A DNA stretch of 64,000 bases, from the NCBI RefSeq assembly GCF_004798705.1, contig NZ_CP039290.1, forward strand, positions 620,001 through 684,000, given 5' to 3'. Within the stretch, counting starts at the first letter, position 1. Each line of letters begins with the position of its first letter. The notes beneath the pieces were generated by a model that was not told where the DNA came from, did not search any database, and saw nothing but the letters and a program-made list of their open reading frames with translations. The DNA is from Arthrobacter sp. PAMC25564 (lineage in GTDB: Bacteria; Actinomycetota; Actinomycetes; Actinomycetales; Micrococcaceae). A program made the position numbers and the translations under genes. This document shows, in pieces, positions 7,315 through 62,470 of this stretch.

Positions 7315-8232
7315 GCCGGTTGGACCTGGGGTCAGGAGCAGCGTAGCGACCAGCGGCGCGAATCCTGCAAGAAGGTTTCCGATCTGGTTGCTGACGGCCA
7401 TACCTGTGAATCGGACGGGTGTGGGGAACTGCTCGGCGAAGAACGACGTCCACACGCCGTTATAGCCGCTGAAGGACAGGGTCATATTGAGGAACGCGAA
7501 AATCGCGATCAGCAGTTGTCGAAATCGCCCAAAGGTACCCGAAGATGGTGAGCGCACAGCCGACAGAGGCGATCAGCATCGTCCGCTTCCGGCCGATGAC
7601 GTCGGAGAGGTAGCCGGCTGCAGGGATGCCGACAATCGACAACGCTATCGGTCCGGAGATGATGGCGAGCATCGCGCTCCGGTCCACCCCTACCGAGGTT
7701 GCGTACGAAAGGCTGAACACGGCGAACAGGGCCTGCATCGCTGCCATCAGTGATGCGCCCGCGACACGGATCACATCGCGCCAGTGGTACTTGAATACGT
7801 CGTTCAGCGGCAGCCTGCGGACGGCGCTTTCCTCTTTTGCTTCGGCGAACACCGGGGTTTCGTCCGGGTGGCTTCGCACGTAGTAGGTAATGACGACGAC
7901 GGCGCTGAGCCAGAAGTGGACCCTCCAGCCCCAGCTGTGCAACTGCTCGACGGGCAGGAGCGCCACCGGCAGGAACACGACGGTCGCCAGTGAGCAGCCG
8001 ACGGCGTAGCCGACCATGACGAAACTGGTGAAGAATCCCCGGCGCCCGACCGGGGAATGTTCAACGGTCAATGTCGAAGCTCCCGCCGACTCGGCCCCCG
8101 CGGAGAAGCCTTGAACGATGCGGAGTACCACCAGCAGTGCCGGAGCCAACAGGCCCACCTGGTCGTACGTCGGAAGACACCCGATGGCGAAGGATGCGAT
8201 GCCCATCAGGACAACCGTGGCAAGCATGACGC
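7315..8232 (-). pseudogene. MHS-family MFS transporter, C-terminal part, frameshifted and interrupted
   Basis: The minus strand encodes the middle and late helices of a metabolite:H+ symporter (MHS) transporter. It runs from SVMLATVVLMGIASFAIG through RIVQGFSAGAE and the central loop to the mid-protein DVIGRKRTML repeat of motif A. At about 7530 the frame changes: LWAIST continues one frame over as LLIAIFAFLNMTLSF up to FAPLVATLL. The last helix is missing at about 7315. The N-terminal third is also missing. The segment that should precede it (GHFSDRIGRKRVM) lies at 18943-19002, so the gene was split by the intervening 10.7-kb insert. Confidence 0.85.
8225..8232. repeat. Left copy of 8-bp direct repeat CATGACGC
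   Basis: This octamer lies exactly where the MFS reading frame ends and foreign sequence begins. The same octamer is at 18943-18950, where the MFS frame resumes. On the minus strand it encodes the end of the motif RKRVM. The pair has the form of a target-site duplication. Confidence 0.8.
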
Positions 8233-8233
8233 T

Positions 8234-8282
8234 TTTGAATTGCAGCGATAAGTGGCGGCATTTTCGCAGCGCTAAATGTCGC
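8234..8282 (+). repeat. IS21-like terminal sequence (left end)
   Basis: The inward reading begins TTTGAATTGCAGCGATAAG and contains two related internal repeats, GCAGCGATAAGTGGCG and GCAGCGCTAAATGTCG, spaced about 23 bases apart. It closely matches the reverse complement of 12994-13048. Internal repeats near the tip are characteristic of IS21-family ends. Confidence 0.7.
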
Positions 8283-8660
8283 CCTTGGTGCCCGTAAGCC
8301 GATGGGCTTTCGTTCACGGTGATGGGCCGCGCCGGAGGGCCTAAGGCTCGTCAGTGGCGAACGGAACAGCGGCGTAGACAGGCCTTACGCCTGTGGATTT
8401 CTTCATCCCCTTAAGACGTGCCGGAGACACTCCCGTCTATGAGACGACTTGCCGAGACAAGGCCGCCTGGCGGAAAGCAGCGTTATCGCGGGGGGAGCCG
8501 CGGCCCTGTTCCCGGGTCTGAAGGGTTGTCTGGAAAAACTGCTGTTTTCCAAGACAGCGGCAGGTGGAGTCGCTGAGGCTTCTCAGTATCAATTGATATC
8601 TTTAGTCCGGCGCCAACCAGGGCCGTAACGACGGGGTGAATCCGATCTGGACATGTCTGA
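8283..8660. other. Gene-free stretch
   Basis: No open frame here resembles a protein. The only structure seen is a short imperfect dyad around 8530-8553 (CTGGAAAAACTGCTGTTTTCC) without a T tract. It appears to be debris between the insertion end and the PucR remnant. Confidence 0.5.
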
Positions 8661-8828
8661 GACGCCCAGGCCCTGCATCTGGCCACCAACACCGTGGCGT
8701 ACCGGGTCAAACGAGCCGCCGAGGTACTCGGCCGGCCCATCAACGAGAACCAGGCGGTGACCCTGGCGGCGCTGGAGATGGCGCATACCTTCCCGCATCT
8801 CATGGACGCGCCGGCTCTTACGCAGTGA
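8661..8828 (+). pseudogene. C-terminal remnant of a PucR/CdaR-type regulator
   Basis: The frame reads DAQALHLATNTVAYRVKRA and then EVLGRPINENQAVTLAALEMA before a TGA at 8826. This is the HTH_30 domain that ends PucR-family regulators (pattern LxxHxNTVxYRxxRxxELLG). There is no upstream part and no start codon, so this is a broken gene caught inside the insert. Confidence 0.65.
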
Positions 8829-9064
8829 CGGAGCGTGCGCCTACCGGGCAGGGGGACAAAGGCGGCCGGCGACGTCCGCGCAGGCTATCGCCGGCACGAC
8901 CGCCGAGCCCCAGCCGGTAGGGAAATTCACGCTGAGCGGTCATGCCGCGTCGTCGGCGCGTTGAGCTCTGAGCGGCCGGGAATCGGCCGCTGAAAGCGAT
9001 GGCATGAGTATTCATATTGGGCTTCCGACGCACGGCCCATGGCAGTCATGTTGGCTGACTGACT
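8829..9064. other. Gene-free stretch after the PucR remnant
   Basis: The 236 bases contain no convincing coding frame, repeat or terminator. They lie between the regulator remnant and the stop codon of the convergent GT39 gene. Confidence 0.5.
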
Positions 9065-11278
9065 TTATTTGCGCAACTGGTAGACGGTGCTCCCTCCGAC
9101 CGTTGTGGGCGGGAATGTCGCTTGGACCCATTGGGTGATGGCCGAGGACGTGCCGCCCCCGCCCGGGGGTGTGCGGCCGTCGGGGCCACCGTTGCTCCCG
9201 GCTCCGGCCCCCGGGCCGCTGTCCTGCGATTCGGCGCCACCGGATCCGGCCGGCATTTCCGGACCGCGCGGGCCGCCGCCGAAGGGACTGCCGGGGATGA
9301 AATAGGCAATCTGTCCTGCGGACACCATTTGCTTGAACTGGTCCAGCGTCGGGAACGGATCAGAGCCCATGAAACCGCCGATGGCCATCACTGACGTATT
9401 GGACCCAAGCTCAAGAGCGGCTGCACTATTCGCCCCGACGGTGGCAGCGGACCATGTTGTCGTTTCCTTTTGCAGCAGTGCATTCAGCGCCGGGTCGCTG
9501 GGGGCATCCGCGAAACCTCCGGGCGCGGCTCCTGGCTGGAGGTTAGCCGGGGCGCGGAAGTCAGGACGCCCGCGTACTGCCCCGCCGCGGGAATCAGCGC
9601 CGTTCGGGCTGCTGATGCCGGCCAGCCCCATGGTTTGGTTGTTTGTCGCGGAGGCCGGGCCTGAGGAAGGTATAGCGCCGGTATGGCCGGTTGCCGCAGT
9701 GGCGATAGTCCACGCGCCCGTGCCAAGGCCTGCAGAAAGGAGTGCCAATGTCGCCGCCGCAACACCTGCCCGCCCGGTCCGGGCCGGACCGGCCGCGATC
9801 AGGGCCGCGCTGAGTATGCCGACGGCGAGCACGGTCCAACGGAGCCACGGGAGCCACCCGGGGCTGCTGGAGAGCAGGACGAAAGACCAGACCGCCGTGA
9901 CCAGGAGTGCCGACACCAGGACAGCCCGAACGGCGGGCCGGGACCGGTGCCTCCAGAGCTGGACCCCGGCGATACCAATCACGGCCGCCACGGCAGGAGC
10001 AAGTTGGACCGTGTAGTAGGGGTGGATTATGCCGCTCATGAAGGAAAAAACCACGGCGACGGTGAGCAGCCAGATGCCCCACATGATCAGCGACGCGCGG
10101 GCCATATCAGTTCGCGGAGCCCGACGCATGAACCACAGCGTGGCGGCGAGAAGGACGATCGCCGTGGGCAGCAGCCATGCCACTTCAGCGCTGAACTCCC
10201 CCCCGAACAGGCGTAGGACGCTCGGAGGGCCTCCAAAGGAAAATCCGCCTCCGGCGCCGCCGGCGCCGGGGAAGCCGCCCGCACCAGGGAAGCCGCCGGC
10301 GCCCCCGGGATAGCCCGGGAGGCCACCTGCGGGGCCCCCGGGGTTGCCGGGGAGATCCGGCACCACACCAACGCCCGGGCCCCCGGCGTTGCCACCGAGG
10401 ATGCGGCTGAGCCCGTTGTAGCCGAAGACGAGTTCCCAGAGGGAGTTAGTTTGGGAACCGGCCATGTAGGGCCGGGCGGAGACCGGGAAGAGTTGGAACA
10501 CCAGCGCGTAGGCTCCGGCGACGACCGTGATACCGCCTGCGGCGGCGAGCAGGTGCTGAAGCCTCTTCTTCAGGGGAACGGGGGCCGCTATCAGGTAGGC
10601 GAGTCCGAAAGCCGGGACGGTCATGAATCCTTGGAGCATCTTGCTCAGAAAGGCCATACCGACAAAGGTTCCTGCCCAGAAAAGCCAGACGGGACTGCCC
10701 TTTTGCGTGGCGGTCACCGTCATCCAGGCGGCGGTCATGAGGCAGAAGACCATCATGGCGTCGGGGTTGTTGAAACGGAACATGAGGGCCGCTACCGGTG
10801 TCGCGGCGAGTGCAGCTCCGGCGATAAGGCCTGCGGCCGGTCCGGCTGCCCGTTTCACCGCGAGATAAAGCAGCCCGACGGATGCGATTCCCATGACGGC
10901 TTCGGGCAGGAGCATGGTGAAGGAACTGAACCCGAAGATCCGGCCCAAAAGAGCCGGGATCCAGAAAGCTGCCGGCGGTTTATCGACGGTGATGGCATTG
11001 GCCGGGTCCAGGGATGCGAACAGCAACGCCGTCCAGTCCTTCGTCCCGGACTGGACGGCCGCCGCGTAGAAGGCATTGGCGTATCCGGAGTTCGTCAGAT
11101 TCCATAGGTAAATGAGCCCTGTCAGCAGGAGCAATGCCGCGGCGGAGGGCCGAACCCAGCGCGGTTGCCCTTCGCCGTAGGCCAGGCGCTTCCACAGTGC
11201 GGCGGAAGCGCCCTGCCGGCGAGCATCGGGGGCCTGATCGCGGGCGGGGTGGGTCTCGGTGATAAATTCGGAGCTCAT
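9065..11278 (-). CDS. GT39/ArnT-type membrane glycosyltransferase
   Basis: This is a large polytopic protein of about 737 residues with around a dozen hydrophobic helices and a periplasmic-type C-terminal domain. The first outer loop has the acidic motif ITVDKPPAAFW, typical of GT-C transferases that use polyprenyl-phosphate sugars. A central outer loop (about residues 310-345) is almost only Gly and Pro with Ala, in collagen-like triplets. The C-terminal 200 residues are Gly-rich and end in a compact domain. The ATG at 11278 is preferred, since GAAAG is 6 bases upstream; a GTG at 11290 overlaps the stop of the preceding glycosyltransferase gene. The pair should first charge a lipid carrier (GT2) and then transfer the sugar outside (this protein). 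Sugar and acceptor are unknown. Confidence 0.85.
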   Translation of the reverse strand: MSSEFITETHPARDQAPDARRQGASAALWKRLAYGEGQPRWVRPSAAALLLLTGLIYLWNLTNSGYANAFYAAAVQSGTKDWTALLFASLDPANAITVDKPPAAFWIPALLGRIFGFSSFTMLLPEAVMGIASVGLLYLAVKRAAGPAAGLIAGAALAATPVAALMFRFNNPDAMMVFCLMTAAWMTVTATQKGSPVWLFWAGTFVGMAFLSKMLQGFMTVPAFGLAYLIAAPVPLKKRLQHLLAAAGGITVVAGAYALVFQLFPVSARPYMAGSQTNSLWELVFGYNGLSRILGGNAGGPGVGVVPDLPGNPGGPAGGLPGYPGGAGGFPGAGGFPGAGGAGGGFSFGGPPSVLRLFGGEFSAEVAWLLPTAIVLLAATLWFMRRAPRTDMARASLIMWGIWLLTVAVVFSFMSGIIHPYYTVQLAPAVAAVIGIAGVQLWRHRSRPAVRAVLVSALLVTAVWSFVLLSSSPGWLPWLRWTVLAVGILSAALIAAGPARTGRAGVAAATLALLSAGLGTGAWTIATAATGHTGAIPSSGPASATNNQTMGLAGISSPNGADSRGGAVRGRPDFRAPANLQPGAAPGGFADAPSDPALNALLQKETTTWSAATVGANSAAALELGSNTSVMAIGGFMGSDPFPTLDQFKQMVSAGQIAYFIPGSPFGGGPRGPEMPAGSGGAESQDSGPGAGAGSNGGPDGRTPPGGGGTSSAITQWVQATFPPTTVGGSTVYQLRK

Positions 11279-11286
11279 GGTGTCTT

Positions 11287-12639
11287 TCACTTGATTATGG
11301 GCGCATCAGTGGGCCCCGGCGGGGGCGGCACGGCGAGGTTGCGGCGTGGGTGCTTGAAGACCCAGACCCGGAACAAAATAAACTTCAGCAAGGTGGCCAG
11401 GAGGTTGGCGCCGACGACGACCGCCACTTCGAGGCCCCTGGAGGGTTCGCGTCCGGAATGAAGCCAGAACAGCGCCCCGGACGTCAGCGCCAGGCCCAAA
11501 ACAAAGACTACAAGGCCCTGGAACTGATGCCGCACGGCGCCCGTGCGTCCGGCGACTCCGAACGTCAACCGCCGGTTGGCCGCCGTGTTCGCGACCGCAG
11601 TGATCAGCAACGCCACTAAATTCGCCGCCTGGGCATCGGCAATCGTACGCATGAGAATAAACAGTGCAAGGTAGGCCAGGGTCGAGAAGGCCCCGATGAC
11701 ACCGAAGCGGACCATTTGCCCCAGGAGGGCTCCGCTGCTTCTGTCCGTCGCATTGCGGCCCAGGGCGTCGCGCAGCTCGGCGACGGGAATGCGTCCGCTC
11801 ATCATGTCTCGCCCGATCCGCACGATCCCTTTCAGGTCATCGATGGAAGTCCGCAGAATATCAACCGACGAGTCCGGGTCATCAGTCCAGTCCACCGGCA
11901 CTTCCGCCACCCTCAGGCCCGCCCGTTCAGCGATGACCAGCAGCTCCGTGTCGAAAAACCAGGCGTCATCGGCCGTCCAGGGCAGGAGTGCCCGCGCAAT
12001 GTCGGAACGGATGGCCTTGAAGCCGCACTGGGCATCTGAAAACCGGGCGCCCAGGGAACCCCGGAGAACCAGGTTATAACTTCGGGAGATGAACTCCCGC
12101 TTGGCCCCCCGCACCACGCGTGAGTTCCGGTTCAGCCTCGTCCCGACGGACAAATCCGAATGCCCCGACAGCAGCGGTGCGATAAGCGGCCCGAGCGCAG
12201 CCAGGTCAGTGGACAAATCAACATCCATATACGCCAAAACTGCCGCCTCCGACGCAAGCCACACCGTCCGAAGCGCCCGTCCGCGCCCCTTCCGGTCCAG
12301 ATGCACGACCCGAACGTCACTGAGTTCAGCGCAAAGGCTGCGGGCAATCTCCAGAGTCGAGTCCGTGCTCGCGTTATCCGCAATGGTAATGACAAACCGG
12401 TGCGGAAAACTGTCCTTGAGGTAGGAATGCAGACGCCGGACCGCCGGCTCCAGGGCCGCTTCTTCGTTGTACACCGGGAGCGCGACATCGAGAACCACGG
12501 TGCCGTCGGACGTGGGGACGGGAGCCCGCTCGGGCCGGATGGCAGGCATACGACCGACCGCGGGCACCTCCGCTGGCTCTTGTCCCCCCGGGGGGTCGGC
12601 CGGCAGGCTCCCGGAGTGGGTCCCCATCGTACTGGACAT
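11287..12639 (-). CDS. DPM1-like GT2 glycosyltransferase fused to a GtrA membrane domain
   Basis: This is a 450-residue protein. Residues about 45-270 form a GT-A domain: VALPVYNEEAAL at the start, IADNASTDST, and the metal-binding YMDVDLSTDL. Residues about 310-435 are a four-helix GtrA-like domain. Such proteins make polyprenyl-phosphate mannose or glucose and help present it across the membrane. It is translationally coupled to the GT39 gene: the TGA at 11287-11289 overlaps its GTG and lies just before its ATG. An ATG at 12627 is an alternative start. The N-terminal 40 residues are low-complexity and poorly conserved in appearance. Confidence 0.87.
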   Translation of the reverse strand: MSSTMGTHSGSLPADPPGGQEPAEVPAVGRMPAIRPERAPVPTSDGTVVLDVALPVYNEEAALEPAVRRLHSYLKDSFPHRFVITIADNASTDSTLEIARSLCAELSDVRVVHLDRKGRGRALRTVWLASEAAVLAYMDVDLSTDLAALGPLIAPLLSGHSDLSVGTRLNRNSRVVRGAKREFISRSYNLVLRGSLGARFSDAQCGFKAIRSDIARALLPWTADDAWFFDTELLVIAERAGLRVAEVPVDWTDDPDSSVDILRTSIDDLKGIVRIGRDMMSGRIPVAELRDALGRNATDRSSGALLGQMVRFGVIGAFSTLAYLALFILMRTIADAQAANLVALLITAVANTAANRRLTFGVAGRTGAVRHQFQGLVVFVLGLALTSGALFWLHSGREPSRGLEVAVVVGANLLATLLKFILFRVWVFKHPRRNLAVPPPPGPTDAPIIK

Positions 12640-12707
12640 GATCTCAACGTACGCAACGAAGCTGTGACCTTCCCGAAAAGACCCTGCATGCCCGCGCTCG
12701 GCGAGGC

Positions 12708-12791
12708 CCTGCGATAAATGAGGTGGACGCCCATGGCCGTCCAGCCGCTCTGGTCCGACGCGCCGAGACCGGCGCCGGTGTCACCGAGAAG
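12708..12791 (-). pseudogene. Remnant resembling the C-terminal end of an MGH1-like glucosidase
   Basis: A short minus-strand stretch reads LLGDTGAGLGASDQSGWTA and then MGVHLIYR. It resembles the closing FHGDTGxGLGASHQTGWT motif of GH63-related MGH1-type glycosidases. Only about 28 codons remain, without a native start or stop. It sits between the GT2 gene and the SUKH remnant. The match is by eye only. Confidence 0.45.
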
Positions 12792-12820
12792 GGGGGTGTA
12801 TGTCCCAGAGTGGAGCCGTC

Positions 12821-12991
12821 CCGAAATCGCGCGGGGTGAGCGAGCCGCTGCGTGCTCCAAAGTAGGCCAAGTCCGTACTCGCCCTCGATGCCACTCGTCT
12901 CAGCCGGGAGTTGCCAAAGGTAGTCAGGGAGTTTGTGCCCGAGTTGGGCTTCGCACGCGTAGATAGCATCCGCTGATGCTGGGGCGCCGAA
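12821..12991 (-). pseudogene. SMI1/KNR4 (SUKH) domain remnant
   Basis: The minus strand encodes FGAPASADAIYACEAQLGHK followed by LPDYLWQLPAETSGIEGEYG and LGLLWSTQRL. This matches the SUKH core pattern (acidic helix, LP..L..L...NG..G..GL..). It abuts the IS21-like end at 12994 and lacks both termini. SUKH proteins are commonly immunity proteins against secreted toxins, but no toxin gene is near. Confidence 0.6.
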
Positions 12992-12993
12992 GG

Positions 12994-13048
12994 TGACATT
13001 TGACAAATAACGCTGCGAAAAACCCGCCATTTATCGCTGCGAGTCACA
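12994..13048 (-). repeat. Internal IS21-like terminal sequence, inverted relative to 8234
   Basis: Read on the minus strand from 13048 it begins TGTGACTCGCAGCGATAAA, followed by TGGCGG, then a second GCAGCG unit. It matches the left end of the insert with few differences. With 8234 it delimits a 4.8-kb unit that carries the two glycosyltransferases. Confidence 0.7.
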
Positions 13049-13114
13049 TAACGGGCCCAGCTGGGAGCGGCCGCGGCCAACGGGTCGGCCCCGGCCCGAA
13101 CCGTCTCGGTCTAC

Positions 13115-13516
13115 CTAGTTGCCGTTGTACTCGTCATCGGTGATGTGTTCGCCCCAAGTGGTGGTCTTTGACGGGTCCTCGCCGTTCTGAAGCATCGCGA
13201 TGTGTTCCATGAAGCAGCCTGGGGCAGCCGCGTGCCAATGCTCCTCGCCGGGCGGCGTGTAAAGCGTCTGGCCCGGGTGGACCTCGATGATCCTGCCGTC
13301 ACGGGTACCGAAACGGCCCACGCCCTGGGTGACACGCAGATACTGGCCGTGCTCGTGGGAGTGCCAGGCGGTACGTGCTCCGGGCGCGAAACGGACGGTC
13401 GCGACGACCATTGTCTGGTCGGACTCGTGGGGAAGAGCGATCGGGTCGAGCCAGACGTCGCCAGCGAATTGGGCCGCCGGGTTTTTCGAGGTGGGCACAG
13501 AGGGTTCGATGTTCAT
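13115..13516 (-). CDS. Single-domain cupin protein
   Basis: This is a 133-residue cupin. The first metal-binding motif is WHSHEHGQYLRVTQG and the second is PPGEEHWHAAAPG, with further histidine in MEHIAM. It resembles small quercetinase-like or mandelonitrile-lyase-like cupins. Its ATG overlaps the stop codon of the upstream CMD gene in an ATGA, so the two are translationally coupled. Such cupin-CMD pairs are common beside zinc alcohol dehydrogenases and MFS pumps. The substrate cannot be told from sequence. Confidence 0.85.
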   Translation of the reverse strand: MNIEPSVPTSKNPAAQFAGDVWLDPIALPHESDQTMVVATVRFAPGARTAWHSHEHGQYLRVTQGVGRFGTRDGRIIEVHPGQTLYTPPGEEHWHAAAPGCFMEHIAMLQNGEDPSKTTTWGEHITDDEYNGN

Positions 13517-13857
13517 GATTTTCCTTGCTTGATGTCTGTGAAGAGTTGCTTGGCGACGCCCATCGCAGACATGCCCTTGGGCCAGCCTGCATAGAGCGTG
13601 ACATGGGTGATGGCTTCGATGAGCTCCTCCTGGGTTAGGCCGTTCTCGATGGCGCGGCCGAGATGGGACCCTAACTGCTCGGTGTTTCCGCCAGCGGTGA
13701 GCACGGCCACGGTAATGAGGCTCCGGTCCCGTGCGCTCAGTTCGGGCCGGTTCCAGACGTCCTCGAAGAGCATGTCGTCGGTGAGCCCGGCAAGCTTCTG
13801 GGCGAAGTCACCGAACATGTTCCGGCCTCCACCTACCTGCTTGGGTTGGTCAGTCAT
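13513..13857 (-). CDS. Carboxymuconolactone decarboxylase family protein
   Basis: This is a 114-residue all-helical CMD-family protein. It has the family stretches RDRSLITVAVLTAGG, LGSHLGRAIENGLTQEELIE and THVTLYAGWPKGMSAM. The redox CxxC pair of AhpD-like members is absent, so it belongs with the decarboxylase/isomerase-like or unassigned CMD group. The ATG at 13857 has AAGGA 6 bases upstream. It is coupled to the cupin gene. Confidence 0.88.
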   Translation of the reverse strand: MTDQPKQVGGGRNMFGDFAQKLAGLTDDMLFEDVWNRPELSARDRSLITVAVLTAGGNTEQLGSHLGRAIENGLTQEELIEAITHVTLYAGWPKGMSAMGVAKQLFTDIKQGKS

Positions 13858-14045
13858 GATGATCCTTCTTTCGGTGGGTGTACTGCGGCTACTGACGGTT
13901 GCAGCGGGGTCATTGGTTCTCGTGGGCGAGCGGGAATGGCGGGCCGCTGGGGCACCGATCCTGGCGCTGTGCCGGTCCGGCGTCGCTAACAGGGGCTTGC
14001 CTCGGGGCAGTTCCCCGTGGCACAGCCCCCGCAACGCTTTATCGG

Positions 14046-15086
14046 TTAGAAGGCGATCATCACTTTGAGGGCTTCGCGGTTGTCCATGGCGCGGTAGGCG
14101 TCGGGGACCTCGTCGAGGCCAACGGTGCGGTCGAAGACTTTGCCGGGGTTGACGGTGCCGTCGAGGATCGCCGGCATCAGCTGTTCGATGTAGGCGCGTA
14201 AGGGTGCCGGACCTCCGGTAAGGGTGATGTTGCCGCCGAAGAGGCTGCCGAAGCCGACGGGGGCTTCTTCGTACTGGGGAACCCCGACGCGGCTGATGAT
14301 TCCGCCGGGGCGGACGATGCCGTACGCCTGCTCGTAGGCCGGCATGTGTCCGACCGCCTCGAGCACCTTCCGGACACCGTGACCGCCGGCGAGTTCCCGG
14401 ACCTTCGCGATACCTTCTTCGCCGCGTTCGGCGACGATATCGGTTGCCCCGAACTCGATGCCGAGGCCGGTGCGGGATGGGTGGCGTCCCATCAGGATGA
14501 TGCGTTCGGCGCCCAGCTGCCTGGCGGACAGCACGGCCATCAGGCCCACGGCGCCGTCGCCAATGACGGCAACGGTGTCTCCGTCGGTGACGCCGGCGCG
14601 GGTGGCCGCGTGCCATCCGGTGCCGTACACGTCGGACAGGGTCAGCAGGGAGGTCAGCAGCGGGGACTTCTCGTCGACGCCGGGTACTTTCACGAGGGTC
14701 CCATCGGCGAACGGAACCCGGATGCCTTCAGCCTGGCCGCCGCCCATTCCGGGTGCATCCCAGAATCCTCCGTGCAGGCACGATGTGTGGAGTCCTTCCC
14801 TGCAGAATTCGCAGGTTCCGTCGGAGTACGCGAATGGGGCGATGACGAGGTCGCCCGGTGCGAGGGTGCGGACGTCGGTTCCGATCTCGTCGACGACGCC
14901 GATGAACTCGTGTCCCATGGACACTCGGTCGGGGGCGCTGGCCATGCTGTGGTACGGGTGCAGGTCCGATCCGCAGACGCACGCCCGGACGATCCGGACT
15001 ACGGCGTCGGTGGTGTCTTTGAGGACCGGGTCGGGGGCGTCGACGATGCGGACGTCGCCGGGGCCGAACATGTAGGTTGCTTTCAT
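14046..15086 (-). CDS. Zinc-dependent alcohol dehydrogenase (MDR superfamily)
   Basis: This is a 346-residue medium-chain dehydrogenase. Catalytic zinc ligands lie in ACVCGSDLHPYH and GHEFIGVV. The structural-zinc cysteines are in CEFCREGLHTSCLHGG, with one ligand position less typical than the usual four-Cys lobe. The NAD(P) fold is at GDGAVGLMAVLSARQLGAERI. It is well spaced from its neighbours: 188 bases downstream to the CMD gene, and 60 bases from the lipoprotein stop upstream. Together with the cupin, CMD and SDR genes it suggests oxidoreduction of a small toxic carbonyl or quinone. That role is inferred. Confidence 0.9.
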   Translation of the reverse strand: MKATYMFGPGDVRIVDAPDPVLKDTTDAVVRIVRACVCGSDLHPYHSMASAPDRVSMGHEFIGVVDEIGTDVRTLAPGDLVIAPFAYSDGTCEFCREGLHTSCLHGGFWDAPGMGGGQAEGIRVPFADGTLVKVPGVDEKSPLLTSLLTLSDVYGTGWHAATRAGVTDGDTVAVIGDGAVGLMAVLSARQLGAERIILMGRHPSRTGLGIEFGATDIVAERGEEGIAKVRELAGGHGVRKVLEAVGHMPAYEQAYGIVRPGGIISRVGVPQYEEAPVGFGSLFGGNITLTGGPAPLRAYIEQLMPAILDGTVNPGKVFDRTVGLDEVPDAYRAMDNREALKVMIAF

Positions 15087-15146
15087 TGCTATCTCCAGAT
15101 GTGTGGTGGCCGGGGGGTGCGAAGAATCAAATGGGATGGGACTGGG

Positions 15147-15695
15147 TCAGTCAGCTTTACGGATGGTGGCGGTGAAATCGGTGGTCTGGGTTTTGACGGC
15201 ATCGGTGTTTTCGTAGGTGCCGATTGGCACGATCCCGGCGAAGTATCCGACGTGGTGGTAGTAAAGGACGAGGCTTCGCTCGGGGACGTAGTACCCGAGC
15301 GTCAGCGGCGCGGCGTCACTTCCCTCTGGTGCGCCCTCGAGGTCCAGCGGGGCCGGAAGTTCCGAGATCTTTTCCTGGCCGCCATAGTCACGGAACGCCA
15401 GGGTCAGGGGAAGCTGGGCCAGAAGCGACACTGACGTGGCGCTGCCGTCGAGTTCTCCTGCAATTCTCCGGCCATCGAGCTCGATGACAATCGGCGTGGT
15501 AGTTGACGTTTCGGTCGGAGCGGCAGTCGGATCGACCGCCGTTGAACCCGGGGAGGGCGGCCGTGCATCAGCGCTCCCGCCCGGGCTGCCGGTGCAGCCA
15601 GCCATAGCGATAGCCGTAGCGGTAGAGATCAAAACCAGCGCCACGACGCCTGGCCGCAAGGCTTTGCCCGGTGAAAAACGCTTGGGAGTGTTCAT
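15147..15695 (-). CDS. Secreted lipoprotein with cyclophilin-like fold
   Basis: This is a 182-residue protein with a signal peptide ending in the lipobox AMAGC (about residues 30-34). A Ser/Thr/Pro-rich linker follows to about residue 68. The C-terminal domain from IVIELDGRRIAGELDGS to the end has the look of cyclophilin-like (DUF369-type) proteins: SLLAQLPLTLAFRDYGGQEK, LTLGYYVPERSLVLYYHHVGYF and GIVPIGTYE. Those proteins lack isomerase activity as far as is known. The gene is in the same direction as the MFS gene upstream. Confidence 0.8.
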   Translation of the reverse strand: MNTPKRFSPGKALRPGVVALVLISTATAIAMAGCTGSPGGSADARPPSPGSTAVDPTAAPTETSTTTPIVIELDGRRIAGELDGSATSVSLLAQLPLTLAFRDYGGQEKISELPAPLDLEGAPEGSDAAPLTLGYYVPERSLVLYYHHVGYFAGIVPIGTYENTDAVKTQTTDFTATIRKAD

Positions 15696-15749
15696 GAGGA
15701 TCCTTTCCGGGGATGAGGGGAGGGCGATTCTGCGGGCCGGCCGATTTTG

Positions 15750-16955
15750 CTAGAGCCGGGCGGGGAATGCGGTGCGGCGCCCGTAGATGGTCAGCATGAG
15801 AGCCGCCATGCCGGCGACGATCATCACGACCGCAAGGACCAGGCCGCCGAAATTCGTCAGCAGGGCGGCGCCGAGGATGCCGGCTGTGAAGATGGCGAGG
15901 TTGAACGCCACCGGCAGGAACGAATTCGCGACGTCCGAGTCCGCGCCTCCGGTGGTAGTGAGGGCGGCTTGGAGCTGGGCGGCCGCCCCGCCGAACGTGA
16001 TCCCCCACAGCACGGTCGCGACGATGATCGCCGGGACCGATGTGTGGCCGGCTAACAGCACCACCGCGGCCACGATGAACAGGGCGACGCTTCCGTGCAG
16101 CAACGGGCGCGGGTGGCGGTCCAGGAGCGCACCCGTGATGATGATTCCGGCGATCGAGGCGACCCCGAAGATGAAGAGTTCGACGTCGAGGGTGAGGCTG
16201 CTGCCGGTAGTCCTCAGGTACGGTGCGATGTAGGTGTAGATGGTGTTGTGGGCCAGCATCCAGGTGAAGATGACGGCCAGGATCACGGCGATACCGGGGA
16301 TGCGGAACACCCGGACCAGGGGAAGCCGGGCGGTGCCCGGCTGCCCTTCGGCGTCGGGCGCGATCGCAGCGATGAACACACCGGCGATAACGGCGACAGC
16401 GGTAAGACCGGCGAAGGCCCACCGCCAGTCAAAGGTCGTTCCGAGCCAGGACCCCAGGGGTGTGCCGAGGGCAAATCCGACGGGCGCCCCGACGGAGACG
16501 ATCGCCAACGACAGCCCTGCACGGGAGGGCGGGCTGATCTTCCGGCCGTAGGCGGCCAGCATGCCCCAGATGATTCCCGAGAACGCACCGGCGACGAAAC
16601 GCGACACCAGCGACAGGATCACGTCGCTCGAGAGGGCCGTGGTGCTGTTGGCCAGGATGAGGCCGAGAATCGCGCCTAGGAGCAATGGCTTGCGGCGCAT
16701 GCCCCGGGTCAGGGTGATGGCGGGGATCGTGATGATCACCGTGCCCAGGGCGTAGGCGCTGACGAACATCCCGACGGCGCCTTCGCTGGCACCCATCCCG
16801 GCGGCGATAACCGGCAGCAGGCCCGCCGGCATGGTCTCCATCGCGACAAGGACGAAGCCGATGACCGCCAGAGCGGCCAGGCTGGCTAACGGCAGCCGTT
16901 TCGGCTTCTCAGTAGATTCCAGGGCCGGCGCCGGAGCGCTGGTGGTGGTGGTCAT
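15750..16955 (-). CDS. MFS drug/sugar efflux transporter
   Basis: This is a 401-residue protein with twelve predicted hydrophobic helices. The N-terminal half has the motif-A-like RGMRRKPLLLG and GIIWGMLAAYGRKISP. It resembles the AraJ/Bcr-CflA-like arabinose efflux group. It is downstream of the SDR gene (33 bases between) and the run continues into the lipoprotein gene. Export of whatever the neighbouring redox enzymes handle is a reasonable inference; the substrate is unknown. Confidence 0.87.
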   Translation of the reverse strand: MTTTTSAPAPALESTEKPKRLPLASLAALAVIGFVLVAMETMPAGLLPVIAAGMGASEGAVGMFVSAYALGTVIITIPAITLTRGMRRKPLLLGAILGLILANSTTALSSDVILSLVSRFVAGAFSGIIWGMLAAYGRKISPPSRAGLSLAIVSVGAPVGFALGTPLGSWLGTTFDWRWAFAGLTAVAVIAGVFIAAIAPDAEGQPGTARLPLVRVFRIPGIAVILAVIFTWMLAHNTIYTYIAPYLRTTGSSLTLDVELFIFGVASIAGIIITGALLDRHPRPLLHGSVALFIVAAVVLLAGHTSVPAIIVATVLWGITFGGAAAQLQAALTTTGGADSDVANSFLPVAFNLAIFTAGILGAALLTNFGGLVLAVVMIVAGMAALMLTIYGRRTAFPARL

Positions 16956-16988
16956 TCTTCTCCTTGCCCGCGACTGCGTTGCGCGGGG

Positions 16989-17660
16989 CTACTTGCTGGT
17001 CGGGAACGTTTCGGTGTACTCGCGGAACGTGTCGCGGCGGGTGTGGTGCTCCCACAGCCGCTGCGCGAGGGCGCCGGGATCGTTCTGCGGGTGTCCGGGT
17101 TCGATCGCGCCGGAGATGATCAGCTGTCCGACGTGAATGTTCTCTGCGCCAAGGGTGTCGTGGAGCATCGTCGCCAGCCCGGCTTCACCCGCGAACGCGA
17201 TGGACGTTCCGGCAACTGACGGGTTCGGCCGGACGGCGGAACCGCCGTTGACGAACAGGACGGTTCCGCGTCCCAGACTGCGCATGCCGCCGAGGACCTG
17301 GTGCACGGCCGTGACGGGCCCGTAGATGGAGAACTCCACCGCTGCGGCCAGATCCGTCACCGTCGTCTCCAGCACGGGGCGCAGGAATTCCTTCTGCGGC
17401 AGCGGACTGTATTCAAGGACCTCGATCGGGCCGAGCTCTTGTGCGGCCTGCTCCAGCGCCGCGGTGAGGGCTTCCGGGTAACGGACATTGGCGGCGTAGC
17501 CGCGGGCGGTGAAGCCCTCGGCAGTTAGTTCATCGGCGAGCAGGTCGAGCTTTTTCTGGTTGCGGGAGATCAGGGCGATACCGAAGCCTTCGGTTCCGAA
17601 GCGGCGGGCGACGGCTGCGCCGAGCCCTGTGCCGGCGCCGACGATGGCGATAACGGTCAT
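16989..17660 (-). CDS. SDR-family NAD(P)-binding oxidoreductase lacking the YxxxK motif
   Basis: This is a 223-residue short-chain dehydrogenase. The nucleotide motif is IVGAGTGLGAAVARRFG at the N-terminus, and an NxxG-like region and FVNGGSA follow. Where the catalytic YxxxK is expected the sequence reads IAFAGEAGLA, so the tyrosine and lysine are missing. This occurs in a known subset of SDRs, but it makes classical dehydrogenase activity doubtful. It is the first gene of the minus-strand cassette and diverges from the XRE regulator. Confidence 0.83.
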   Translation of the reverse strand: MTVIAIVGAGTGLGAAVARRFGTEGFGIALISRNQKKLDLLADELTAEGFTARGYAANVRYPEALTAALEQAAQELGPIEVLEYSPLPQKEFLRPVLETTVTDLAAAVEFSIYGPVTAVHQVLGGMRSLGRGTVLFVNGGSAVRPNPSVAGTSIAFAGEAGLATMLHDTLGAENIHVGQLIISGAIEPGHPQNDPGALAQRLWEHHTRRDTFREYTETFPTSK

Positions 17661-17848
17661 AACGTCCTTCCTAGCGATGAGGCGGCATTTTTCAGCGGGA
17701 AAGGGTCAGGTCGAAAAGCCCGCCCGGGTCGTACCGCTGGGCAAGCCCTTAACCAGTCAACACGCGAACCGTCCCGGGGAGGAGTCTCTATCGGGGGGTG
17801 TACCAGCAGGGGACCCCAACGAAGTTCGAGGGGACGTATTCTCGTGGC

Positions 17849-18724
17849 ATGGATAATAAAGCCGAGGTACGGGAGTTCCTGATGTCGCGCCGCGCGAAGG
17901 TGACCCCCGAACAGGCCGGGCTTCCTGCCGGGCCGAACAGACGAGTTGCCGGGCTTCGCCGCACGGAAGTTGCGACACTCGCCGACGTCAGCGTCGAGTA
18001 CTACGCCAAGCTCGAACGTGGTGCTATCAGCGGAGCCTCCTCATCCGTGCTTGACGCCATCGCCCGCGCCCTTCTCCTCGACGACACGGAGCGGACCCAC
18101 CTCTTCGACCTTGCCCGTGCGGCCGACGGCATTCCGCTATCCGGGCGTCCCCGCCGACGATCCACGAAGAACACCGTAAGTCGGCCCAGTCTCCACTGGG
18201 TGCTTAGTACGATCACTGACGGCGTTGCCTTCGTGCGCGACCAACACCAGGACCTCCTTGCCACGAATGAGCTCGGCCGGGCTTTCTATTCACCCCTCAT
18301 CGGCGCCGGCGGTCGCACTCCGAACCTGGCCCGGTTCCAGTTCCTCGACCCTGCATCCCGGGACTTTTACCCAGACTGGGAGCTCTTCGCTGAGATGTGC
18401 GTCGCGATCATGCGGACCGAAGCCGGCCGTGACCCCAACGACAAAGGTCTCCAGGACCTCGTTGGTGAGCTGTCCACGCGCAGCGATATATTCCGGCAGC
18501 TGTGGGGCGCCCATGACGTCCGGACCCACGGGTCCGGCACAAAACGATTCAACCACCCCGTCGTCGGCGAACTCACTCTCGCCTACGAAGAACTCATTAT
18601 CACTGCCGACCCAGGCTGCGTCCTCATGATCTACACCGCCGAACCCGGCTCACCCAGCGCTGAGCGACTGAGGCTACTCGCCAGCTGGGCAGCCACAGGA
18701 TCCATGCCGGCTGCGCCCCGTTAG
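17849..18724 (+). CDS. XRE-family regulator with MmyB-like ligand domain
   Basis: This is a protein of about 291 residues. Residues about 20-75 are a helix-turn-helix (RRVAGLRRTEVATLADVSVEYYAKLERG), and the C-terminal 180 residues are the MmyB-like ligand-binding fold (SPLIGAGGRTPNLARFQFLD, then FNHPVVGELTLAYEEL). The ATG at 17849 is the first in frame that gives a normal N-terminus (MDNKAEVREFL). It is divergent from the SDR gene, with 188 bases between, so it probably controls that cassette. This regulator type often sits beside SDR and MFS genes. Confidence 0.88.
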   Translation: MDNKAEVREFLMSRRAKVTPEQAGLPAGPNRRVAGLRRTEVATLADVSVEYYAKLERGAISGASSSVLDAIARALLLDDTERTHLFDLARAADGIPLSGRPRRRSTKNTVSRPSLHWVLSTITDGVAFVRDQHQDLLATNELGRAFYSPLIGAGGRTPNLARFQFLDPASRDFYPDWELFAEMCVAIMRTEAGRDPNDKGLQDLVGELSTRSDIFRQLWGAHDVRTHGSGTKRFNHPVVGELTLAYEELIITADPGCVLMIYTAEPGSPSAERLRLLASWAATGSMPAAPR

Positions 18725-18942
18725 GGCATCTCAAATATGTGAGGCATCAGCTGACAGACAGTGCCGCAACATGACCGCCACTTGTCGATGCAATTTGCAG
18801 CTTTGGCCCTCCGAGGGATCCGTTACCGAGACGGGACGAGCAGCCCGTCAATGCTTGGTAGAAGCCCCGATTTCCTTGCGCTGTTGAGGTTGGCGATAAA
18901 CGGGGGGAGGTCTGTGACCGCCACGAAGCGCTAAACTCCACA
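18725..18942. repeat. Right end of the insert: gene-free stretch with IS21-like tip
   Basis: From 18942 inward (minus strand) the sequence begins TGTGGAGTTTAGCGCTTCGT and continues GGCGG. Its spacing AGCG to GTGGCGG is the same as in the left end. The repeated internal motifs are less clear than at the other two ends. The rest of the stretch back to the XRE stop has no gene that could be supported. Confidence 0.55.
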
Positions 18943-18950
18943 CATGACGC
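18943..18950. repeat. Right copy of 8-bp direct repeat CATGACGC
   Basis: This octamer is identical to 8225-8232 and lies at the other edge of the 10.7-kb insert, where the MFS reading frame resumes. Confidence 0.8.
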
Positions 18951-19002
18951 GTTTACGGCCGATTCGGTCGCTGAAGTGTCCCATCACAACCGCGCCGACC
19001 GG
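18943..19002 (-). pseudogene. MHS-family MFS transporter, N-terminal fragment
   Basis: The minus strand reads RPVGAVVMGHFSDRIGRKRV followed by M. This is the motif A loop after helix 2 of MHS transporters. It begins with the right copy of CATGACGC and would continue directly into SVMLATVV or MLATVV at 8232 if the insert were removed. Everything before helix 2 is missing because the fragment abuts the truncated monooxygenase at about 19002. Confidence 0.8.
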
Positions 19003-20078
19003 CCGTCATGGGCGCCGGCTCGACCGGCCTGCAGATCATCACCGCCATTGCCCCCAATGTCGGACACCTCACCGTCTTCCAGCGCTCACCGCAGTACAGC
19101 GTCCCGGTCGGCAACACCACTGTCACGCCGGAATACGTGGCATCCGTCAAGAAGGACTACAGCAGGATCTGGGAACAGGTCCGGGGTTCCGGCGTAGCTT
19201 TCGGGTTCGAGGAAAGCACCGTTCCTGCCATGAGCGTCTCCGCAACGGAGCGGCAGGCTGTCTTCCAGAAGGCCTGGGAGACCGGCGGCGGATTCCGCTT
19301 CATGTTCAACACCTTCGGCGACATTGCCACGGACCGGGACGCTAACGAGGCCGCCGCAGCGTTTGTCCGCGGCAAGATCGCCGAGATCGTCGAGGACCCG
19401 GAGACGGCCCGCAAGCTCACCCCGACCGACCTTTACGCCAAGCGCCCCCTGTGCGACAGCGGCTACTACGCCACCTTCAACCGGGACAACGTCGAGCTGG
19501 TGTCGGTCAAGGAGACACCGATCGTCGAGCTGACGCCCACGGGCATCAGGACCTCGGACGGCGTGGAGCACGAGCTCGATGTCCTGATCTTCGCCAACGG
19601 CTTCGACGCCGTGGACGGAAACTACACACGGATCGACATCCGTGGCCGCGGCGGCGAGACGATCCAGCAGCACTGGGAGCATGGGCCCACCAGCTACCTC
19701 GGCGTCACCACCGCCGGATTCCCGAACATGTTCATGATCCTTGGCCCCAACGGCCCCTTCACCAATCTGCCGCCGAGCATCGAGGCCCAGGTCGAGTGGA
19801 TCTCACAGCTGATCAACGACGCCGAGACCGGACAGGTTGCCTCCGTGGAGCCGACGGCCGAGGCCGAGGAAGCCTGGACCCGGACCTGCCAGGAGATCGC
19901 CGACATGACGCTCTTCCCGAAGGCCGACTCCTGGATCTTCGGCGCCAACATCCCGGGAAAGACGAAGACCGTCATGTTCTACCTCGGAGGCCTCGGCAAC
20001 TACCGGAACAAGCTCGCCGAAGTCCGCGAAGCCGGTTACGAAGGGTTCGAGCTGAAGGTGCTCGCTCCGGCGGAGTAA
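19003..20078 (+). pseudogene. Baeyer-Villiger-type flavin monooxygenase, N-terminal third missing
   Basis: This open frame of 356 codons matches the C-terminal two-thirds of a cyclohexanone-monooxygenase-like enzyme. It starts inside the NADP Rossmann motif (VMGAGSTGLQII). The FAD motif and the BVMO fingerprint (FxGxxxHxxxWP) are absent. Later conserved parts are present: KRPLCDSGYYATFNRDNVEL, IFANGFDA, MFMILGPNGPFTNLPP and NIPGKTKTVMFYLGG. Full-length relatives have about 540 residues. Its 5' end is fused to the MFS fragment on the opposite strand, so a deletion probably removed the start regions of two head-to-head genes. Without the FAD domain it cannot be an active oxygenase. Confidence 0.85.
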
Positions 20079-22552: not shown

Positions 22553-23635
22553 TCAGCCGTGGGTGGGGGCTTCGACCAGGGCGGTGGCGATGCTGTCGGC
22601 GTCGTCCAGCGCGGCGAGGTAGCGTTCGGCGTCCAGTGCGGCGGCGCATCCGGTGCCGGCGGCCGTGATCGCCTGGCGGTAGCGGTGGTCCACGGCATCC
22701 CCGCAGGCAAAGACGCCGGAGAGGTTGGTGACCGTGGCGGGGACGTCCACCCTGATGTAGCCCTCGGCGTCGAGGTCCACCTGGCCGTGCAGCAGTTCGG
22801 TGCGCGGCACGTGGCCGATCGCGACGAAGATGCCGGTGGCGGCCTGCTCCCGGGTTTCGCCCGTGCGGGTGTCCTGCAGCGTCACGCCGGTGACCTTGCC
22901 ATCGCCGTGGATCGCCGTGACCGCGGAGTTCCAGGCGAAGCTGATCTTGGGATTGTCCTTGGCCCGCTGGGCCATGATCCGGGAGGCCCGGAGCTCACCC
23001 TTGCGCACCACGACGGTGACGGACTTCCCGAAGCGGGTCAGGAACGTCGCTTCCTCCATCGCGGAGTCCCCGCCGCCGACGACGATGATGTCCTGGTCGC
23101 GGAAGAAGAAGCCGTCGCAGGTGGCGCACCAGGAGACACCATGTCCGCTGAACTTCTTCTCCTCGGGCAGCCCGAGTTCCTTGTAGGCGGAGCCGGTGGC
23201 GAGGATGACGGCGGGCGCCTCGTGGGTCTCGCCGGCTGCGGTAACCATGCGCTTGAGGTGCCCGGTCAGCGTGACCTCCGTGACGTCGTCGAACACCACC
23301 CGCGCGCCGAATTTCTCGGCCTGCTGCTGGAGCCCGTCCATCAGCTCGGGTCCCTGGACACCGCCCGGGAAGCCGGGGAAGTTTTCCACCTCGGTGGTGT
23401 TCATCAGGGCGCCGCCGGCGGTGACGGCTCCGGCGATCACGAGGGGTGCCAGGCCTGCACGGGCGGCGTAGATCGCCGCGGTGTAGCCGGCGGGGCCGGA
23501 TCCGATGATGATCAGCTGTTCAGTGTTGCCGGGTTCAGTGTTGCCGGGTTCAGTGTTGCCGGGTTCAGTGTTGCCGGGTTCAGTGTTGCCGGGTTCAGTG
23601 TTGCCGGGTTCAGTGTTGCCGGTTTCAGCGCTCAC
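22553..23635 (-). CDS. trxB: Thioredoxin reductase with N-terminal pentapeptide repeat
   Basis: This is a 360-residue NADPH-dependent flavoenzyme. FAD motif [20 protein letters not shown], redox pair in [15 protein letters not shown] motif [15 protein letters not shown] and the closing [16 protein letters not shown]. It reduces thioredoxin, which recycles some ArsC enzymes, and this fits its place in the ars island. The start is the GTG at 23635 with AAGGAG upstream. Unusually, residues 6-40 are seven copies of GNTEP (the last ends GNTE), placed before the FAD domain and encoded by a perfect 15-bp tandem repeat. Normal TrxB begins almost directly with the FAD motif. Confidence 0.93.
23521..23625. 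repeat. 15-bp tandem repeat, seven copies, inside trxB
   Basis: The unit on the plus strand is CAGTGTTGCCGGGTT. Six copies are identical and the seventh (23611-23625) has one change. It encodes repeats of GNTEP on the minus strand. The repeat is a multiple of three, so copy-number change would keep the frame. Confidence 0.97.
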
Positions 23636-49438: not shown

Positions 49439-50860
49439 TCAGGAATTGCGCTGCTGCTGCTTGATCCGGTTGGTCAGCTCGGTCACCTGGTTGTAGATCA
49501 CACGGCGTTCGGCCATCAGTTCGCGGATCTTGCGGTCCGCATGGATCACCGTGGTGTGGTCGCGGCCGCCGAGCTCCTGGCCGATCTTGGGAAGGGACAT
49601 GTCCGTGAGCTCGCGGCACAGGTACATGGCGATCTGCCGTGCGGTGACCAGGGTGCGGGTGCGGGATTTGCTGCAGAGCTCTTCCATGCTGAGCTTGAAG
49701 TAGTCCGCCGTCTGCGTCAGGATCTGCGCGGAGGTGATTTCCTGGGCGCCGTCATCGGTGATGAGGTCCTTGAGGACCATTTCGGCCAGGGCCACATCGA
49801 CCGGCTGGCGGTTCAGGCTGGCGAACGCGGTGACCCGGATCAGGGCGCCCTCGAGTTCGCGGATGTTGCTGGAAATCTTGGATGCGATGTATTCCAGGGC
49901 ATCATCCGGTGCGGAGAGACCCTCGCTGAGGGCCTTCTTCCGGAGAATCGCTATCCGGGTTTCCAGCTCGGGCGGCTGGATGTCCGTCAGCAGGCCCCAC
50001 TCGAAGCGTGATTTCATCCGGTCTTCGAAACCCGCCAGGAGCTTGGGCGGCTGGTCGGAGGTGATGACGACCTGCTTGTTGTTGTTGTGCAGGGCATTGA
50101 AGGTGTGGAAGAACTCCTCCAGCGTCCGGTCCTTGCCGGCCAGGAACTGGATGTCATCAATGAGCAGGACATCGACGTTGCGGTAGGTGGTCTTGAAGCT
50201 GGTGCCTTCGTCGTCCCGGATGGAGTTGATGAAGTCGTTGGTGAATTCCTCGGAGTTCACGTACCTGACGCGGATGCCGCTGTAGAGCCGGCGGGCATAG
50301 TGGCCGATCGCGTGCAGCAGGTGGGTCTTGCCCAGTCCGGAATCGCCGTAGATGAACAATGGGTTGTAGGCCTTCGCCGGTGCCTCGGCGACGGCGACGG
50401 CGGCCGCATGGGCGAAACGGTTGGAGGATCCGATCACGAAGGTGTCGAAGACGTACTTCGGATTGAGGCGGCCGAATTCGTGGGAGGTGCTAGGCAGCAT
50501 CGGCTGCGGCTTGAGCTCCACCGTGGGGTCCGCCCCGCGGGAAAGTTCGACGGCGGGTTCCGGTTCAGTGTGCAGCGGCACCAGATCGGTGTCGACGTCG
50601 ATCGCACAGCGGATTTCGTCGGAGAAGACATTCCGGAGGGCGTCGTCGAGGGCTTCCTTGACCTGGGTCTGCAGGACCTCCCGGGTCAGTTCGTTCGGCA
50701 CTGCCACGAGAAGGGTGGAGCCGATCAGTCCTTGCGCCTGGGCGAGGATAACGAAGCCGCGCTGCCGGGGTGAGACACGGTGGTCGTTCTCGAGAAGGCT
50801 CACTACTCGCCGCCAGGAACTTCCGACAGTGTTGGCTTGGTTGGCTTCGTCTACTGTCAT
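49439..50860 (-). CDS. dnaA: Chromosomal replication initiator DnaA
   Basis: This is a protein of 473 residues. Domain III has Walker A GDSGLGKTHLLHAIGHY and Walker B VLLIDDIQFLAGK. Domain IV ends with the DNA-binding signature GRDHTTVIHADRKI. The ATG at 50860 is chosen (GAGGAA 8 bases upstream); a TTG directly before it is the alternative. It binds DnaA boxes to open the origin. Transcribed towards dnaN. Confidence 0.98.
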   Translation of the reverse strand: MTVDEANQANTVGSSWRRVVSLLENDHRVSPRQRGFVILAQAQGLIGSTLLVAVPNELTREVLQTQVKEALDDALRNVFSDEIRCAIDVDTDLVPLHTEPEPAVELSRGADPTVELKPQPMLPSTSHEFGRLNPKYVFDTFVIGSSNRFAHAAAVAVAEAPAKAYNPLFIYGDSGLGKTHLLHAIGHYARRLYSGIRVRYVNSEEFTNDFINSIRDDEGTSFKTTYRNVDVLLIDDIQFLAGKDRTLEEFFHTFNALHNNNKQVVITSDQPPKLLAGFEDRMKSRFEWGLLTDIQPPELETRIAILRKKALSEGLSAPDDALEYIASKISSNIRELEGALIRVTAFASLNRQPVDVALAEMVLKDLITDDGAQEITSAQILTQTADYFKLSMEELCSKSRTRTLVTARQIAMYLCRELTDMSLPKIGQELGGRDHTTVIHADRKIRELMAERRVIYNQVTELTNRIKQQQRNS

Positions 50861-51322
50861 CAATCAGTTCCTCAAACTTGCTTGTCTGCATTAACTGCAG
50901 CCACAAGTCGTGAACCAGTGCCCTGGCCCCGGCTTCATCCACAGGGTTATGCACAGTCCGTGGATAATCGGCTACTGAGCCACTCTAGGGGATCAAAAGC
51001 CTAGAAGATAGCTGGGTTGAGGCCTGTGGATAATTACACCGTTGTGGTTCTGGATCGGGCCCTGTGACCCATTTCATCCACAGGCTGGCACGTAAGTTAG
51101 CCACAGCTGGGGATAGTCTGCGAAGCGACCCCCGGTTTGACTCTCGGTGGGATTTTGCCCTAACGTTGTGAAGTCCTTTGTGTCCGCTTTCCGCCCTAAT
51201 TTGAATCTCTCCCTGACGCTCCGCGTCTTGCGAGTCCAGGGCAGCGGCACATACACATAAGCGTCGGCCAGTTCTTCCCCTTGATCGGGTGGGCGCACCT
51301 TTGATCCACTGGAGTAACTAAC
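50861..51322. other. dnaA-rpmH intergenic region, expected part of oriC
   Basis: One perfect DnaA box (TGTGGATAA at 51025) and near matches TTATGCACA (50947), CGTGGATAA (50959), TCATCCACA (50935 and 51074) and TTAGCCACA (51097). Gene strand changes here from minus to plus. It also holds the promoters of dnaA and rpmH. Confidence 0.75.
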
Positions 51323-62215: not shown

Positions 62216-62470
62216 TGATCGACTATCTGTAGGCCGTTTCAGCCAGGAATTTGAGCCAGGTTGGTGGCTTGTTTCAGGCCAAAAGAGCGGTAAGAATCAG
62301 GCCAGTCTTTTCTCCTGAAAATCGTTGTTTCGGGGGCTGGCTTGGATAGAGATCACCCGGTGGCCGGGGCCCTTCCTAGAGTGTCAGGGACATGGGCCCG
62401 CCACCTCCCGGATAGGTTCCTTACGGCGCTGCCATTGCGAAGCGTATGCGCCGGAAGGGCTGGAAAGCAG

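Follow-up and report, generated by a model that had tools for sequence, protein, structure and literature searches.

The 64-kb stretch of the Arthrobacter sp. PAMC25564 genome analysed here (the window, in whose coordinates all positions are given) contains an interrupted gene for an MHS-type MFS transporter, and a 10,709-bp segment (8234–18942) lies between its two pieces. The larger part of the gene, a pseudogene on the minus strand (7334–8232; PF07690), reaches position 8232, and the gene picks up again on the other side of the segment as an upstream-side remainder of 64 bp (18943–19006, minus strand; 90.6% identity to L004, a locus of the related genome G019). Both pieces fall within a single gene in L004. 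The 8-bp sequence CATGACGC is present twice, at 8225–8232 and 18943–18950, bracketing the segment; the left copy is native to the intact gene of L004, and the right copy is supported by duplication scoring of end pairs. The original prediction of an 8-bp target duplication, and of a transporter broken at the left junction and resumed at the right on the same strand, is borne out, as is the presence of the right piece, whose extent is revised to the 64 bp before a second break.

When the window flanks were joined with a single copy of the 8 bp, the product and L004 gave an alignment of 852/966 identities, with gaps at 11 positions; the part of the alignment shown (query 1–397), which includes the junction at ∼56–64, is ungapped. 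Uninterrupted homologues of the transporter were found in 3 of 59 genomes searched (G019, G028 and G013; 93, 89 and 87% protein identity, open frames of 516–524 aa), as had been anticipated, and a fourth genome, G004, has a shortened and broken copy. Because the joined flanks align without a gap at the junction and relatives hold the uninterrupted gene, the 10.7-kb segment is an insertion, and the relatives show the empty site. The second break lies at 19005/19006, 56 bp past the right duplication, and is followed by an open reading frame (ORF; 19008–20078) that is flavin-monooxygenase-like by eye and has no Pfam match. In G019, the two points matching this break are 8.9 kb apart, with order and orientation kept (L044 1463–10387), which points to a probable deletion of about 8.9 kb in the lineage of the window that took away the start of both the MHS gene and its neighbour. 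G028 and G013 also have both genes inside one 20-kb stretch, in other orientations. Given this second break and probable deletion, together with a frame shift in the MHS remnant near 7500, the insertion is probably not recent. It lies about 31 kb from dnaA (49439–50863), with dnaN, recF, gyrB and gyrA nearby (recognized by eye from the ORFs).

The segment is bounded by two recognizable transposon ends. The left end (8234–8305, plus strand), of a type termed L, scores 76.9 bits with an nhmmer model built without the window and 32.4 with a 27-bp end matrix. This matrix was trained on 20 tips of ten duplication-flanked elements, with the window excluded, and scores its training tips between 20.6 and 38.1. 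The right end (18918–18942, minus strand; tip TGTGGAGTTTAGCGCTTCGTGGCGG), of the R type, lies exactly at the junction and scores 11.3 bits with the R model and 22.2 with the matrix; R-type ends were first obtained from locus L181, to which this one corresponds over about 26 conserved bp. Two further L-type ends lie inside the segment, at 12969–13048 (minus strand; 53.9 bits, matrix 35.8) and, in degraded form, at 18744–18799 (minus strand; 23.2 bits, matrix 22.1). Only these four sites (8234, 13048, 18799 and 18942) exceed a matrix score of 14 in the whole window. AGCG and GTGGCGG occur in both outer ends, the same distance apart, as originally noted; the left tip is indeed at 8234, reading TTTG instead of the TGTG of the family. 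Since it has lost its TG, the element is probably immobile now.

Between the outer ends lie two blocks of cargo. Block A encodes a PMT_2/YkcB-like glycosyltransferase (9065–11290, minus strand; PF13231, PF24878) and a GT2 glycosyltransferase with a GtrA domain (11287–12639, minus strand; PF00535, PF04138). Block B begins, beyond the end at 13048, with a cupin matching an (R)-mandelonitrile lyase-type NCBIfam model (13115–13516, minus strand; NF049940, above cut-off). It continues on the same strand with an ORF whose 3′ part (∼13548–13785) is a carboxymuconolactone decarboxylase domain (13513–14616; PF02627), a zinc alcohol dehydrogenase (14046–15086; PF08240, PF00107), a small ORF named lipoprotein-like by eye (15147–15695), an MFS transporter (15750–16955; PF07690) and a short-chain dehydrogenase (16989–17660; PF00106). 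An MmyB-like helix-turn-helix (HTH) regulator on the plus strand (17798–18724; PF17765, PF13560) completes the block, which is closed by the degraded end at 18799. Inside the left end, at 8650–8830, is a fragment resembling by eye the C-terminal HTH of a PucR-type regulator, perhaps another captured scrap. No TniA, TniB or resolvase match was obtained within 8234–18942 by tblastn at 1e-4, and none of the Pfam-matched ORFs in the segment is IstA or IstB, in keeping with the absence of a transposase claimed originally.

The two blocks have different relatives. Block A (9066–12735) matches G197 at 85% DNA identity, and no end was found in the 12-kb stretch of G197 around this match. The relative of block B is G194, which matches it between 13062 and 18796 in four pieces, with 13896–14866 and 16935–17581 left unmatched; the stretch matched includes the lipoprotein-like ORF. 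The outermost pieces stop just short of the internal ends (13048 and 18799), and G194 retains a degraded copy of the latter. Part of block B (13121–13663) has a second copy in the host, 96% identical, at G000:C1:2982246–2982787. Smaller units were also considered. Neither block A alone (8234–13048) nor 8234–18799 is flanked by a duplication, and both were rejected as separate elements; for block B in G194 (L047 184–6044), no duplication was seen by eye in the flanks shown.

The ends are widespread in the genus. The 68-bp left end was matched in 80/204 genomes, with up to four candidates scored per genome, and a 30-base left-end pattern was found with at most three mismatches in 47/206, whereas reversing the pattern as a control gave no match. 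Host sites for a 17-base core, allowing at most three mismatches, numbered 13, versus 6 for the control; those at 13040 and 8242 have 0–1 mismatch, three more are inside the segment, and the other eight have 3 mismatches each. Phage records gave no match to the end. Eight plasmid records contain it: two list an AAA ATPase, a Mu-C transposase and a recombinase adjoining it, and a third lists a TniB-family protein and a recombinase. Pfam domains of the unit in the first plasmid are rve plus Mu-transpos_C, AAA_22 or TniB, and Resolvase. Against NCBIfam, TniA falls below cut-off for every model, with IS481 best (∼100 bits, cut-off 224) and IS21 weaker (∼40, cut-off 160). A TniA search at 1e-10 that covered the host and 35 genomes selected for carrying ends gave a match in 17 of the 36 and none in the other 19; more distant TniA types could escape it.

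Proximity of the ends to transposition genes provides a further line of evidence. An inward-facing end lies within 600 bp of 10/19 TniB, 1/18 TniA, 0/35 IstB and 0/20 IstA matches, a comparison somewhat inflated by IstB loci with little flank, by one IstB gene counted twice (L136/L137) and by tni loci partly chosen for ends. Within these TniA/TniB/resolvase units, the gene nearest the end is TniB. The end belongs to transposons that encode a serine resolvase together with a TniA-like transposase and a TniB-like ATPase.

Pairs of such ends are associated with target duplications. In a first set of loci, 11 of 28 inward-facing pairs had a duplication of at least 7 bp, compared to none of 8 bp and three of 7 bp among 2,201 cross-locus control pairs; the models used were not trained on duplications, except that the R seeds included L117, whose duplication had already been seen by eye. 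A second set comprised 119 loci (2.2 Mb) scored with the matrix, leaving out L119 and L226 as overlapping; since these loci had been selected because they contain ends or tni genes, the proportions are not genus-wide estimates. Here 176 tips were found (some being second repeats of one end), versus 3 in reversed sequence, and 14/47 inward pairs had flanking duplications of 7–10 bp, against 4/7,662 control pairs. Besides the window and the ten elements used for training, these 14 comprise the newly found L215, L232 and L277 (10 bp each). Duplications of 10 bp (n = 3), 9 bp (n = 5) and 8 bp (n = 5) predominate, with a single one of 7 bp.

Half of the 14 elements (L215, L132, L218, L219, L227, L125 and L181) have TniA and TniB matches, some broken. 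L216 has a resolvase and a partial TniA, L124 and L277 have only a resolvase (L277 also has an istA/istB pair inside), and L128, L117, L232 and the window have no tni gene at 1e-4. The same kind of ends thus surrounds other cargo, as the original prediction proposed: an MBL-fold protein, an Imm5-like protein, an M24 peptidase and RibD_C in L117; an S15/PepX peptidase, an MBL-fold protein, GNAT, glyoxalase, a sigma factor and one ORF without family in L128; and a VOC match in the 1.9-kb L232. L117, whose outer ends are both of R type and flanked by an 8-bp duplication, also contains two L-type ends back to back (9571 and 9932, ∼360 bp apart).

We also compared sequences flanking the ends, leaving out L174 and L178, which duplicate other records. 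Immediately inside the end, homology between loci is seen for 73/163 tips (17 clusters), compared to 22/166 tips (8 clusters) immediately outside. Among 146 inside-homologous pairs with both outsides comparable, the outsides are unrelated in 144, a number to which the largest inside cluster (27 tips, holding tni genes) contributes part.

Collectively, these data make it very probable that segment 8234–18942 is a non-autonomous, cargo-carrying derivative of the TniA/TniB/serine-resolvase family whose relatives are ISArsp9, ISArsp14 and ISBli29. We consider it a derivative rather than an autonomous member because no TniA, TniB or resolvase match lies within it. In such a scenario, a TniA/TniB pair, acting in trans or formerly present and since lost, would have paired both outer ends and linked them to the MHS gene where it had been cut in staggered fashion, and repair of the resulting gaps would have generated the 8-bp duplication. 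The cargo would have been built stepwise, the internal ends at 13048 and 18799 being scars of earlier units. Movement by a transposase from elsewhere fits the data, and later loss of the tni genes would look alike.

Several observations weigh against this interpretation. At the left junction, a single base, T8233, lies outside the tip and separates it from the duplication. The right end matches the R model with an E value of 0.28 and over only about 26 bp, and its 13–15/25 identities to the published repeats are not above the scan background; over 34–38 positions of these repeats it has 14–17 identities. The left end matches the left repeat of ISArsp9 at 23/34 only. No TniA or TniB is listed around the end in 5/8 plasmid records, for which the gene tables are incomplete. 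No duplication of 6 bp or more flanks 33/47 inward pairs, ten of the 14 elements with duplications trained the scoring matrix, and possession of ends or tni genes was the criterion for choosing the loci. Homology outside the ends is accompanied by unrelated insides in 12 of 14 pairs. Finally, tni genes may still have been present at insertion.

In a special case of the same interpretation, an autonomous TniA/TniB element entered the MHS gene and lost its tni genes, cargo was added by further insertions, and the 10.7 kb never moved together. We regard this as a serious contender, its chances falling somewhat below even. The internal ends at 13048 and 18799 and the different relatives of blocks A and B are in its favour, broken tni genes are known in the family (L216, L219), and one tni unit of the host has a frameshifted TniB. 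However, no tni remnant was detected inside the segment by tblastn at 1e-4, and tni-less units with 8–10-bp duplications exist elsewhere (L117, L128, L232), though later tni loss is possible there too.

The host genome has two TniA homologues, both at 2.11 Mb (L212). In unit 1, the TniA1 frame is open (483 aa) and shares 94–97% identity with the TniA fragments found in element L227, which bears an L-type end. It is the TniB of this unit that is frameshifted, and on the far side no L-type end scores above 18 by matrix within L212. Unit 2, a candidate source of the cognate enzyme, has open TniA2 and TniB2 frames but likely ends (matrix 19.1 and 6.5) that differ from those of the window. We infer that the present host genome offers the window element no obvious intact partner.

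The original prediction described the ends as IS21-like, and the segment could accordingly be an IS21-family element or derivative, moved by IstA/IstB. The TG..CA tips, internal repeats and 8-bp duplication do resemble IS21, and an istA is present within the window. Against this, the end was near none of the IstA or IstB matches, the window IstA included, whereas it sits at the tip of TniA/TniB/resolvase transposons, next to about half of the TniB matches. Moreover, a search at 1e-20 of 26 genomes selected for carrying ends found no IstB in 8 of them. The strongest host match to IstB is divided between two reading frames, and two weaker ones are above cut-off (at 690036 and 670048, the latter in the dnaA ORF). 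These data argue against IS21-like ends, and we consider this origin very improbable. The window istA itself (62342–63877; NF033546 above cut-off) is of IS21 type. Frames beyond it include an IS3-type transposase by eye, and no istB was noticed there by eye, the model search having been that of the whole genome with PF01695.

We give almost no credence to chance, i.e. to the 8-bp repeat and end-like motifs being scars of old rearrangements: the region is degraded (the MHS frame change, the probable 8.9-kb deletion 56 bp past the right duplication, the weak right end), but the repeat sits at both MHS breakpoints, the same sites are marked by the end matrix, and duplications of at least 8 bp occur in 0/2,201 and 1/7,662 control pairs.

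Elsewhere in the window, a thioredoxin-reductase-like ORF (22553–23635, by eye) has an N-terminus with six GNTEP and one GNTEQ in tandem.

Tn5053/Tn402 and Tn552 likewise combine a serine resolvase with a TniB-like ATPase and a TniA that has rve and Mu_C domains; their duplications are shorter (5 and 6–7 bp, respectively) and their end sequences differ from those described here. The 8 bp of the window and the 7–10 bp of the 14 elements exceed the 5 bp of Tn5053/Tn402. Mobile insertion cassettes, too, carry cargo between transposon-like ends without a transposase, and belong to other families. Cargo flanked by miniature inverted-repeat transposable elements and moved in trans, including Tn402-like integrons, lies between ends without a transposase, as here, in other transposon families (PMC10969869, PMC3934969).

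The closest published sequences are ISArsp9, ISArsp14 and ISBli29, which PMC6305408 classes as ISNCY and assigns to the Arthrobacter plasmids pA58H2 and pA2H2 and to Brevibacterium. It gives inverted repeats for ISArsp9 and ISArsp14 and direct repeats of 10 and 7 bp, compared to 7–10 bp here, and 11–12 passenger genes (PMC6305408). ISArsp14 and ISBli29 are likewise described as large insertion sequences with passenger genes, matched by a search with an IS481-like transposase (PMC10045372). The likeness extends to the sequence and tip of the L-type end: the left end of the segment shares 27/34 positions with the right repeat of ISArsp9 and 30/38 with each repeat of ISArsp14 (compared without the leading C), and the end at 13048 has 29/34 and 34/38, respectively. 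The segment differs from these elements in its right end, which is not close to the published repeats, and in having no TniA/TniB/resolvase match. No published report of transposase-less derivatives of these elements was recognised, judging mostly by titles and abstract openings.

By analogy, the closest counterpart in mode of life is the TIME composites of the Tn3 family. PMC4133298 describes Pseudomonas TIMEs, their composites and a resolvase-bearing form (TIME-RES), i.e. transposase-less units moved in trans, resolvase-only forms, and mosaics with other DNA. Tn3 ends, by contrast, are 38 bp long and generate 5–6-bp duplications, versus the TniA/TniB-type ends and 7–10 bp seen here, and movement was demonstrated in that system, whereas here it is inferred from anatomy (PMC4133298).

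Certain gene families recur close to the ends. An inward end is found no more than 230 bp from 6/13 RibD_C matches, 300 bp from 3/5 VOC matches and 122 bp from 2/2 Imm5-like matches, while the single M24 peptidase match is 740 bp off; since the loci were chosen for ends, this proximity is a lead for a cassette-like organization and no proof of it. The MBL-fold family, with 1/4 matches near an inward end (within 100 bp), was not used as an end-linked module. Tentatively, and with the odds against it, we suggest that ends of this family may tag gene modules genus-wide (RibD_C/DHFR-like, Imm5-like, VOC), which would be moved singly or joined as multi-gene tni-less units, with transposases supplied in trans. 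If so, they would provide exchangeable cargo in the manner of an integron, with no integrase involved.

More broadly, ends scattered across Arthrobacter-type genomes are tied by this work to one transposon family, unclassified in ISfinder, and the duplication length of the family is measured in 14 elements. Some of its units hold metabolic cargo without a detectable transposase, and annotation based on transposase genes alone overlooks such units.

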